The position numbers and the translations under genes are program-made. Below, one piece after another: positions 17,897-20,766 of a stretch of 63,491 bases of DNA. The notes under the pieces were generated by a model that saw only the letters and a program-made list of their open reading frames with translations, had not been told where the DNA came from and searched no databases. The first letter of the stretch is position 1; each line of letters starts with the position of its first letter. This DNA is from Ferrovibrio sp. (GTDB lineage Bacteria; Pseudomonadota; Alphaproteobacteria; Ferrovibrionales; Ferrovibrionaceae), in the NCBI RefSeq assembly GCF_002796975.1, contig NZ_PEKV01000009.1, forward strand, positions 65,098 to 128,588, in the 5' to 3' direction.

Positions 17897-17984
17897 ATGA
17901 AATCGCGGAACCCCGGCATCTTATAACGGCGGCTGCAACTGGCCCGCTGTTTGCTTCCATGGGTGGTGATCCATGGAGGCGGCA

Positions 17985-18857
17985 ATGTCCATCACGTCAG
18001 TTTCACCTGCGGTTTACCAAGTTCCCGCGCAGCGGACGATCCCGCGGGTTGCGCCGAAGAATGTTGCCGATCTGCCGCAGGAAGAGCAGGACGCCATAAG
18101 GGCGCGCCACGCGGAAATGTATGCGCGCATTGCCGAGCATGACCGGAAGATGGCCAACATGAAGAAGCTGATCCAGAATATGCGGACAGGTGGAGAGGTC
18201 CAGAGTCGCCATGCCCCGAATGTGGCAGGCCTTTCACGCGAACAGTCGCTCCGGCAGATCGAATCGATGTCTGAACTGATCCGGAGCGGCGACGCTGAGA
18301 GAGTCCCGTTTTTCAGCGGCAACGGAACGCAGACCACGACGAATGCGCGGCAGTATGTCTCCTGGCTGCAGCAGCATGTGAAGGGACTGGATAGCGCGGG
18401 TGAGGTCACGCCAGAGCCGGTTAGTACGGGCACCGCCGGCGGTCCGTTTCCTGCCGATTACGTCAGCGAGATAAAGAGGCTTCGTACTGATGTACCAGGG
18501 GTGAAATACGAAGACTGGTCCCCTGAATTCAAACAGCGGGTTGCTGAGGGGCGGGAACGTTCCCAAGCGCTGAGCGCATTGGGCAGAGAGCTGGAGGAGC
18601 GCTCCAAGCTTGAGGCGGTGGAGAGCAACAGTTACTGCGCACCGTATGTTAAAGGATTGTCGCGCGAACAGGCGTTGACGCAAATTTATTTTTCCAGCGA
18701 AGTGATCCGGAACGGACAGGAAGAGAAGTACACTCTCTCCACCAGCCTAGACGGCAAACAGACGACCTCGAATTTCCGCCAGTACGTCTACTGGTTGCAG
18801 CAGCATGTGAAAGCGCTGGACGGCGGCGGAACGTCATCCACGCTGGCGCAGGCGTAG
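17985..18857 (+). CDS. Unrecognised protein with two copies of an SREQAL/WLQQHVK module
   Basis: 290 residues, no signal peptide or membrane segment, predicted largely helical and soluble. Two copies of a module of about 70 residues are clear: residues about 72-139 and 213-283. Shared features: a (L)SREQ(A/S)LxQI start, SELIRSG-type helix, a GTQTT(S/T)N turn, RQYVxWLQQHVKxLD and a Gly-rich end; each is preceded by a charged helix rich in Arg/Glu. It ends in STLAQA. I chose ATG 17985 because GGAGG lies 7 nt upstream, inside a rival upstream ATG at 17973. The next gene (2 bp away) is a one-module paralogue with a similar N-terminus (MSITSVS versus MSDISLS). I do not recognise the family and assign no function. 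Confidence 0.85.
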   Translation: MSITSVSPAVYQVPAQRTIPRVAPKNVADLPQEEQDAIRARHAEMYARIAEHDRKMANMKKLIQNMRTGGEVQSRHAPNVAGLSREQSLRQIESMSELIRSGDAERVPFFSGNGTQTTTNARQYVSWLQQHVKGLDSAGEVTPEPVSTGTAGGPFPADYVSEIKRLRTDVPGVKYEDWSPEFKQRVAEGRERSQALSALGRELEERSKLEAVESNSYCAPYVKGLSREQALTQIYFSSEVIRNGQEEKYTLSTSLDGKQTTSNFRQYVYWLQQHVKALDGGGTSSTLAQA

Positions 18858-18859
18858 TC

Positions 18860-19294
18860 ATGTCCGATATCTCGCTTTCGGCATACCGGAACTGGATTCC
18901 GCCTTCCGACCCGAAACAGTCGAAGCCGTTCTCCTATACCAAATGGGAAGACCGTTCGCCCGAGGACCGGGCCGCGTCGATAAAGGCGAGGGCAGATCTG
19001 GCTGCGACCGACAGGCGTTGGGCTGAAGAGGACCGGAAGATTGCTGCTGATTTCAAAGGCCGCGAAGCCCACTCCCGCAGCGTCCCGAATGTGCAGTCGC
19101 TGACGCGTGAACAGGCGCTGTACCAGATCGAATATATGAGTGAGCTGATCCAGAGCGGCGAGGCTGAGAAAACCACGCTGTACGCCGCGAAGGGCACGCA
19201 GACCACCTCGAACTATCGCCAGTATGTTTACTGGCTGCAGCAGCATGTGAAGGAGCTGGAAGGTGCCGGCCAGTCCACGCTGGCGCAGGTGTGA
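18860..19294 (+). CDS. Unrecognised protein with one copy of the same module
   Basis: 144 residues, paralogue of the preceding gene. The module covers residues about 68-137: LTREQALYQIEYMSELIQSG, then GTQTTSNYRQYVYWLQQHV, ending STLAQV, closest to the second module of the neighbour. Residues 30-66 are a charged helix (RSPEDRAASIKARADLAATD...EEDRKIAADF) that matches the pre-module helices of the neighbour in style. Start ATG is 2 bp after the upstream stop, so the two are cotranscribed. An intrinsic terminator follows 95 bp later. Function unknown; gene duplication with module fusion or loss is the evident history. Confidence 0.85.
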   Translation: MSDISLSAYRNWIPPSDPKQSKPFSYTKWEDRSPEDRAASIKARADLAATDRRWAEEDRKIAADFKGREAHSRSVPNVQSLTREQALYQIEYMSELIQSGEAEKTTLYAAKGTQTTSNYRQYVYWLQQHVKELEGAGQSTLAQV

Positions 19295-19388
19295 TGCGAT
19301 CGAAATTTTTCGCTTGCGCTCTTTAAAACGGTCGCGCGTACCCCAGATTATCCTGTGCCGCTCTTGCCCATCGTGAATCCCTCTGTCC

Positions 19389-19413
19389 ACTGCCAGTCTC
19401 TGGCAGTTTTCTT
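19389..19413 (+). terminator. Rho-independent terminator after the two-gene unit
   Basis: ACTGCCAG (19389-19396), loop TCT, CTGGCAGT (19400-19407), then TTTTCTT. Perfect 8-bp stem with U-tract, correctly placed 95 bp after the second unknown gene. Confidence 0.85.
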
Positions 19414-19472: not shown

Positions 19473-19578
19473 ACCCTCACCCTCCCGCTTCGCGGGCCCC
19501 TCCCTCTCCCACAAGTGGGAGAGGGACGTTCGGCCTTACTCCCTCTCCCGCTTGCGGGAGAGGGTTGGGGTGAGGGTG
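19473..19578. repeat. Intergenic repeat, family C (CCCTCACC / GGTGAGGG type)
   Basis: Outer arms ACCCTCACCCTCCCG and GGTTGGGGTGAGGGT flank two inner palindromes built on CCCTCTCCC-N-GGGAGAGGG and CCCTCTCCCGCTTGCGGGAGAGGG-like sequence. This is a common dispersed repeat type in Gram-negative genomes. It fills part of the 413-bp gene-free gap at 19295-19707, which otherwise holds the terminator and the phased array listed separately. Confidence 0.8.
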
Positions 19579-19587
19579 CTAGACGCT

Positions 19588-19712
19588 GGAATAAGACTCA
19601 GCTAAGCCAAAATAAGAAAATATAAGCACGGAATAAGACTCAAATAAGCACGCTATAAGACGGACTAAACCTGCCCCAAGCGCCGGCTAAACCTTTGATA
19701 AACTGGCTTAAG
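19588..19712. repeat. Helically phased TAAG/TAAA array, 12 units of 10-11 bp
   Basis: TAAG or TAAA begins at 19592, 19603, 19613, 19623, 19634, 19645, 19656, 19666, 19688, 19699 and 19709; the one exception, at 19677, is CAAG. Successive spacings are 11,10,10,11,11,11,10,11,11,11,10, mean 10.6 bp, which is one turn of B-DNA. Sequence between the tetramers varies, although GGAATAAGACTCA occurs twice (19588, 19630). The array ends inside the stop codon of the minus-strand AbrB-type gene. Phasing with variable spacers suggests a protein- or bend-determining DNA array rather than simple slippage. What it does is unknown. Confidence 0.85.
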
Positions 19713-20766
19713 CGCCTGGTTTCCTGAGGCCCAGCAGCCGGAACACCGGCGGCACGGCGATCACCACCACCGCGATGCGGAAAATATGCATGCTGGCGAC
19801 GATGGCGACCTCGACGCCCAGCCCGAGCGCCACCAGGCTCATCTCCGCCATGCCGCCGGGCGACAGCACCAGCATCAGCGCCTCGGTCGGGATGCCGGCC
19901 CAGGCCGCGAAACTCAAGGTCATGCCGAGCGCCACCGCCAGCATGATCAGGGTGCCGATCACGGCGTAAGTGGCGATGCGGCCGACTTCCTTCAGGGGCG
20001 TGCCGACGAAGCGGCAGCCCAGCGCCGCACCCATCACCACCTGCGCGGTGGCGACCAGCTCCGGCGGCGGCGCGGCATGCGACCAGCCGGCCAGATGCAC
20101 CAGCGCCGAGACGACCATCGGGCCGACGAGCTGCGCCGCCGGGATGCGCAGGAAGCGCGCGGCATACCAGCCGGCCGCGCCGCAGGTGACCAGCAGCGCG
20201 CCCTCATGCCATGGCAGTTGCCACATATGCGGCCCCTGCGCCATCGGCGGCACGTTGAGTTTTTCCACGAAGCGGAAATAGACCGGCACCGTCATCACGG
20301 TGATGAAGATGCGCAAGGCATGCGTCAGGATGATGCTGCGGCCGTCGCCGCCGAAAGCCTCGCCCACCAGGGTCATTTCCTGCAACCCGCCGGGCGCGGC
20401 CGAGAAATAGGCGGTCACCGGATCGAGCCGGGCCAGATGGCGGAACATGAGATAGCAGATCGTGGTCACGATCGGGATATAGGCCATCATCAGGACGATC
20501 AGGTTCACCCATTCGCGGGCGCGCTCGATCATCTCGGGCCGGAAGGCGCTGCCCAGCATCACGCCGATGATCACGATCATCACGGTGCGCAGACGGGGCT
20601 CGACGCGCATGGTGAGTTTGCGGTCGATGCCGGCCAGCACGCCGACGCCGGTGAAGAACATCGCCCCCAGCATCCAGGCCAGCGGCATATGCAGCATGAG
20701 AAAGACCGCACCGCCCGCCGCGCCGATCAGCAGGGCTGGCAGGCTGGAGGCGAGGTTGCGCAGCAT
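19708..20766 (-). CDS. AbrB/AmoA-like family multi-pass membrane protein
   Basis: 352-residue inner-membrane protein of the family misleadingly named AbrB or 'ammonia monooxygenase' (PF05145), built from two AbrB duplicated halves with roughly ten hydrophobic segments. Seen: ALLIGAAGGAVFLMLHMPLAWMLGAM at the N-terminus, the signature SAAPGGLQEMTLVGEAFGGD in the first half and LSPGGMAEMSLVALGLG in the second half, the hallmark internal repeat. Function is not established; transport is usually assumed. Start ATG at 20766. It precedes nothing on its strand within the window, and its stop codon lies in the phased TAAG array. Confidence 0.85.
   Translation of the reverse strand: MLRNLASSLPALLIGAAGGAVFLMLHMPLAWMLGAMFFTGVGVLAGIDRKLTMRVEPRLRTVMIVIIGVMLGSAFRPEMIERAREWVNLIVLMMAYIPIVTTICYLMFRHLARLDPVTAYFSAAPGGLQEMTLVGEAFGGDGRSIILTHALRIFITVMTVPVYFRFVEKLNVPPMAQGPHMWQLPWHEGALLVTCGAAGWYAARFLRIPAAQLVGPMVVSALVHLAGWSHAAPPPELVATAQVVMGAALGCRFVGTPLKEVGRIATYAVIGTLIMLAVALGMTLSFAAWAGIPTEALMLVLSPGGMAEMSLVALGLGVEVAIVASMHIFRIAVVVIAVPPVFRLLGLRKPGA

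Follow-up and report, generated by a model that had tools for sequence, protein, structure and literature searches.

A 12-unit array of TAAG-type words, spaced one helical turn apart, in a 4.23-Mb draft genome of Ferrovibrio (Alphaproteobacteria; G000 below) belongs to a genome-wide family of phased arrays with several core words. On a tentative reading, it may form the downstream part of a chromosomal element that is dispersed and for the most part inherited vertically. The parts of this putative element are, in order, a sigma70-type promoter overlapping a LexA-type operator, a leader of about 50–145 bp with short conserved motifs and hairpins, and an array of about 4–14 direct repeats of one core word (TAAG, ACGAA, or AACNGG), one helical turn apart; the promoter, the leader, the array, and their association were established by sequence comparison. 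The initial annotation of this DNA covered the array only, and it is now extended by the other family members and by the promoter-side module.

The window, that is, the whole stretch of 63,491 nucleotides that was analyzed, carries the TAAG-class array on the plus strand at positions 19592–19712. Recomputation returned the same 12 TAAG/TAAA/CAAG units as reported initially, starting at 19592, 19603, 19613, 19623, 19634, 19645, 19656, 19666, 19677 (CAAG), 19688, 19699, and 19709, with seven TAAG words followed by TAAA, CAAG, TAAA, TAAA, and TAAG, and with successive spacings of 11, 10, 10, 11, 11, 11, 10, 11, 11, 11, and 10 bp (mean 10.6). When the longest chain of TAAG/TAAA/CAAG cores at steps of 10 or 11 was counted in 20,000 first-order Markov sequences trained on the array itself, none exceeded five units, and a Markov model derived from the whole 418-bp intergenic region yielded at most four, compared to the observed 12. 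Chaining of any identical 4-mer gave seven units in the window array against a simulated maximum of five, and 618 kb of block-shuffled sequence contained no same-4-mer chains of five or more. The Markov and shuffle controls exclude a chance origin of the arrays, and the helical-turn phasing is non-random as originally proposed. Tandem Repeats Finder detected only a poor 22-bp repeat (3.5 copies, 70% matches), so the array is not an ordinary tandem repeat. A micro- or minisatellite was also considered and rejected given the lack of near-identical whole units, the 70% matches, and the divergent spacers; the original view that the array is neither an iteron nor a simple tandem repeat thus stands.

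The flanks of the array likewise agree with the first description, and extend it. The last TAAG (19709–19712) overlaps the TTA at 19708–19710, the complement of the stop codon of a convergent minus-strand gene at 19708–20766, the "AbrB-type" gene in which the array had been said to end. This gene belongs to the family PF05145, named AbrB in Pfam, which is a membrane-protein family distinct from the DNA-binding AbrB; its product is therefore no candidate for a protein that reads the array. Among the closest named relatives of this product is that of a Ferrovibrio sp. MAG, G004, which is congeneric with G000 and thus supplies the genus assignment. On the other side, as reported, the array begins about 13 bp past the end of a dispersed repeat, a REP-like double-palindromic sequence at 19474–19577 that lies between the leader and the array. 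This repeat is missing from the orthologous locus in the congener G001, and in another congener, G004, an AACNGG array occupies its place; similar repeats adjoin other arrays (L255 and L297). The leader includes a conserved motif, CTTGCCCATCGTGAATC, at 19363–19379 (plus strand), and a hairpin, ACTGCCAG-TCT-CTGGCAGT, at 19389–19407 (plus strand); motifs similar to the former precede arrays in each of the three classes. The window, G001, and G004 have in common the leader motif CATCGTGAAT and the hairpin; in the stem of the G004 copy, an A-T pair is replaced by G-C, a compensatory change. Across the collection, the leader pattern CATCGT[GCT][GA]A upstream of arrays produced 28 matches on plus strands and none on minus strands. 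The window copy retains the leader and the array, with a degenerate promoter/operator box. Farther upstream lies a plus-strand gene of unassigned family (18860–19294, 144 aa), which shares with another plus-strand gene, at 17973–18857, a repeated module, LTREQALxQIxxMSELIxSGxAE...TQTTSNxRQYVxWLQQHVK; neither of the two has a Pfam match, and a related protein is encoded upstream of the G001 array L115.

The initial suggestion that the genome and its relatives would be worth searching for such arrays proved productive: relatives carry them and shuffled controls do not, the reverse of the outcome named at the outset as counting against the claim. The arrays were collected using pattern searches and extracted stretches. 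A search for TAAG triplets with 6–7-bp gaps produced 87 matches in G000, compared to two for a reversed-pattern control; together with the window array, these matches yield 26 arrays after merging and removal of one chance match overlapping a coding sequence (L056). TAAG arrays were identified also in the congeners G001, G002, G004, G005, and G009 and in G010, which represents a sister genus, and the triplet pattern search detected none in G003, G006, G007, or G008. The TAAG arrays of G000 average about eight units. The distance from one core to the next in this genome is 10 bp in 59 cases and 11 bp in 91, with one instance of 9 and two of 12, and the distances between all pairs of cores peak near 21, 32, 42–43, 53, 63–64, 74, and 84–85 bp. 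Successive units tend to alternate between a 10-mer, TAAG-NNRRAA, and an 11-mer, TAAG-NNYSNNA. The mean spacing is 10.60 in G000, 10.63 in G001, 10.64 in G005, and 10.52 in G004, and exactly 10.0 in G002, G009, and G010; hence a phase of 10.5 is no strict requirement. Across 22 alignments, each of orthologous arrays of the same class, 11 of 628 core positions and 299 of 1145 spacer positions were changed (about 2% versus about 26%), a contrast that is an upper estimate because the alignments favor matching cores. Some G002 arrays consist of perfect tandem units.

Two further classes follow GTTC-box promoters that have no TAAG array in G000, namely, phased ACGAA words with 5–6-bp gaps and phased AACNGG words with 4–5-bp gaps. 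The ACGAA pattern has 61 matches in G000 against one in the control and occurs also in G001, G004, G005, and G008; the AACNGG pattern has 105 against none and occurs also in G004, G005, and G008, with none in G001 and a few in the family members G013 and G016. Given that G008 combines ACGAA and AACNGG without TAAG, and G001 combines TAAG and ACGAA without AACNGG, the classes are gained or lost independently. Viral contigs contain only short ACGAAC runs. The AACNGG leader, examined in G000 and G005, is strongly conserved, with a near-constant distance of about 143 bp from the -10 element to the first unit, and carries a GAACN4GTTC palindrome, a TTGGACATCGTGGAT box, AATCAAYGRCTTGGCA...TGCCAAG, and a TTGGC/GCCAA hairpin. 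A coding reading of this leader (peptide LDIVDREINALAQ) was rejected, as codon positions 1, 2, and 3 vary at 0.14, 0.25, and 0.22, respectively, and the frame is broken in 2 of 12 cases.

Comparison of the sites across species indicates that the array positions are mostly vertically inherited. In 22 of the 26 cases, the flanking sequence of a TAAG array of G000 also adjoins a TAAG array in at least one other species; the window array has orthologs in G001 (L115) and G004 (L141), whereas G005 has lost the array, so that the neighboring gene follows directly. An array of mixed 10/11 spacing in G000 (L049) and one of strict 10 spacing in G002 (L093) occupy the same site, and at one intergenic site the G005 array (L129) is inverted relative to its neighbors compared with L057. 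At shared flanks, the core word itself may be switched: 15 cross-species pairs, representing about eight loci, combine arrays of different classes. Among these, L035/L126 (TAAG) and L298 (AACNGG), as well as L135 (TAAG) and L300 (ACGAA), visibly keep the promoter box and the leader, and L053/L137 (TAAG) are paired with L301 (ACGAA). The window locus represents a partial switch, in that the AACNGG array of G004 is located after the shared leader and before the TAAG array. A few arrays reside inside apparent coding sequences (one set, L059, L112, L140, and L146, in four species; also L288, L311, and L294), with in-frame read-through without stops where checked and no obvious promoter.

Several shorter motifs were observed around the arrays. 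A palindrome resembling parS (TGTTTCACGTGAAACA or a closely similar sequence) is located shortly downstream of L048, L124, and L149, in three species, and two TGTTTCACGG half-sites immediately precede several other arrays. On the array strand, the motif TCAANNNCTT(A/G)G was counted 13 times upstream of arrays, 6 times downstream of them, and never in the farther flanks; it is present also after the TAAG arrays of G010, where the arrays L100–L109 share a conserved TCAACGGCTTGG...AATTTTTTT tail about 60 bp after the array.

Many array loci, the window copy excepted, possess a LexA-type operator overlapping a sigma70 promoter. The exact GTTCN7GTTC box is present upstream, on the array strand, of 13 of the 86 TAAG arrays, with a single instance on the other strand and none downstream, and, with one mismatch or fewer, upstream of 41 of the 86, against a background of 5.9%. 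The exact box precedes 7 of the 16 ACGAA arrays and 4 of the 30 AACNGG arrays collected (array numbers that are "at least" values for both classes), and GAACN4GTTC precedes 11 of these 30 AACNGG arrays; the background frequencies per 250-bp strand are 0.24% for GTTCN7GTTC and 0.12% for GAACN4GTTC. Because some ACGAA and AACNGG loci were first found via the box, the operator rates in these two classes are biased upward, whereas the TAAG rate is unbiased. Alignment on the box places a TATAAT-like -10 element inside it and a TTG-type -35 element about 15–17 bp ahead, and strong promoter-like scores were obtained upstream of about a third of the arrays (27 of 86) versus 5 of 86 downstream. About half of the TAAG arrays, including that of the window, and nearly all G010 arrays lack a recognizable operator. 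In G003 and G007, the operator-like boxes examined mostly seem to precede genes, and no phased arrays were found behind them. Given that GTTCN7GTTC is the alphaproteobacterial LexA consensus (PMC3091678) and that lexA of G000 itself has GTTCTAATGAAGTTC upstream, the array promoters are likely to be under LexA control. The statement in the initial annotation that no partner gene is adjacent is correct, but needs amending in that a LexA-type operator/promoter and a leader precede many of the copies.

We tentatively favor the possibility that they are class-specific DNA docking sites for head-to-tail protein filaments behind SOS-type promoters. Each core word would be recognized by a small DNA-binding protein specific to its class, the predicted reader, which would dock head-to-tail, one monomer per turn, on a single face of the DNA and so build a nucleoprotein filament. 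Located just behind the promoter, such a filament could silence transcription or serve as a roadblock, so that the SOS-type transcript would not enter the neighboring genes. This model fits the observations that array orientation is fixed to the promoter rather than to the neighbors and that no intrinsic terminator is consistently found; replacement of one core class by another also fits because any filament would do the job. No binding protein for the arrays was identified and no array-adjacent gene family recurs among the approximately 50 neighbors scanned, which are mostly housekeeping genes, so the reader gene is probably encoded elsewhere. The model is further weakened by the exact 10.0 spacing in three species, by the arrays that lack an operator, by the restriction of strong promoter-like scores to about a third of the arrays, by the arrays within coding sequences, and by the inverted array of the pair L057/L129.

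As every array is located on the side of its promoter that is transcribed, the main rival is a role at the RNA level, namely, an SOS-controlled small RNA in which the array would be a multivalent tail without structure, recognized by RNA-binding proteins of three specificities. We consider it rather unlikely, even if much agrees with it: the operators lie upstream on the array strand only, the AACNGG leaders are of near-constant length (about 143 nt) with conserved motifs and the TTGGC/GCCAA hairpin, the leader hairpin of the window locus shows the compensatory change, and a spacing of exactly 10.0, as found in some species, does not require a B-DNA phase. The arrays are also very structure-poor, with no RNA structure detected in that of the window (z of 0.14 and -0.83 for the two strands). 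Conversely, the restriction of the spacing to 10 or 11, the mean of which matches the B-DNA repeat in four species, speaks against an RNA tail, and covariation in the AACNGG leaders is weak (term -0.03). No Rfam match was obtained in the window at the gathering score, and the leader loci tested gave, apart from a tRNA, a single match, which was below threshold and lay far away from the element. Intrinsic terminators downstream of the arrays showed no consistent signal, and a Rho rut-like excess of C over G was limited to the ACGAA class.

The other explanations fare worse. Chromosome-organization sites of the Noc/SlmA/MatP kind, bound by a nucleoid protein and only incidentally close to promoters, would account for the dispersal of dozens of sites, whose positions are conserved, whose orientation to the neighbors varies, and which sometimes lie inside genes, but the strand-fixed association with promoter and operator, far above background, and the absence of the TAAG class from G008 and of the AACNGG class from G001 render this role improbable. 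A similarly small chance attaches to a selfish or neutral repeat without cellular function, its units arising by slippage and its arrays by gene conversion: the perfect tandem units in some G002 arrays and the replacement of classes at orthologous sites are compatible with such an origin, yet spacers that diverged by about 26% while the cores changed by 2% and the spacing stayed at 10 or 11 are unlike neutral decay, and the positions are mostly vertically inherited. Intrinsic curvature or flexibility, in which phased TpA/AA steps would bend the DNA with no specific reader, had been raised initially and is in line with the helical phase of the TA/AA steps in the TAAG class. A wedge model gave no support to this idea, with a curvature of 1.07 for the window array versus 1.09 ± 0.04 for shuffles and class means at z of 0.4–1.4; moreover, the cores are near-invariant words, and those of the ACGAA and AACNGG classes contain no TA step, which makes curvature a very improbable explanation. 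The least credible candidate, put forward originally for ParR/TubR, is a plasmid-type centromere (ParR/parC, TubR/tubC, or StbA). ParR-type centromeres are characterized by arrays of 10-bp direct repeats (PMC5016525), and direct-repeat arrays within the 10–12-bp range are indeed what is found here; however, instead of one or two loci beside a par operon, there are at least 26 TAAG arrays distributed over most contigs, with no par operon at those scanned, and the classes are interchangeable. The copy number refutes a single-site centromere.

Among known systems, several resemble the arrays in part. The stbDR repeats of plasmid R388 have a period of about 11 bp, and the ParR/parC and StbA/stbDR centromeres share with our arrays direct repeats of 10–11 bp, but each is a single plasmid locus beside a par operon, in contrast to dozens of chromosomal sites without one. 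Boxes of the OmpR/PhoB family have half-sites about 10–11 bp apart that are bound head-to-tail; these are usually few and located upstream of the promoters of regulated genes, whereas here long arrays lie downstream of the promoter. Alphaproteobacterial LexA/SOS promoters share with the array loci GTTCN7GTTC overlapping sigma70 elements, but the array promoters, unlike the usual ones, often face a phased array rather than a gene. REP/BIME repeats are likewise dispersed, intergenic, and multi-copy, whereas the arrays lack an inverted-repeat consensus and conserve the direct-repeat phase and the core word rather than the full sequence. Direct repeats are bound also by PhoP and PmrA (PMC5859096). 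BldC of Streptomyces binds direct repeats of varying number head-to-tail, as an extended protein-DNA filament; its repeats are 9 bp long (AATTXXXXC), and sites with two to four of these are covered by the structures (PMC5859096). BldC operators and the arrays are thus alike in having direct repeats in varying number, the head-to-tail filament being that of BldC, but the arrays are spaced by one turn, reach about 14 units, fall into three core classes, and come from a different phylum. Operators of the BldC family itself were rejected as an identification, the cores being TAAG, ACGAA, or AACNGG at 10–11 bp rather than the 9-bp AATTXXXXC. None of these near designs unites three interchangeable words and a LexA-type promoter with dozens of copies in the chromosome, and no prior description of such arrays, in this organism or in general, was found in the open-licence literature. 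Thus, it is possible, albeit uncertain, that an undescribed class of elements is at hand, in which an SOS-type promoter, a leader, and a phased array with at least three alternative words, each with its own reader, would occupy fixed sites and switch words.

The strict constraints of this repeat system involve only a short core of 4–6 bases and the one-turn spacing. If the filament model is true, the arrays would constitute a naturally occurring ladder of sites for DNA binding and would fence off transcription in a novel manner; if, instead, the RNA model is true, they would belong to SOS-controlled RNAs of a new family, with tails that are multivalent. The presence or absence of each class across species should allow the predicted reader proteins to be found by comparative genomics.
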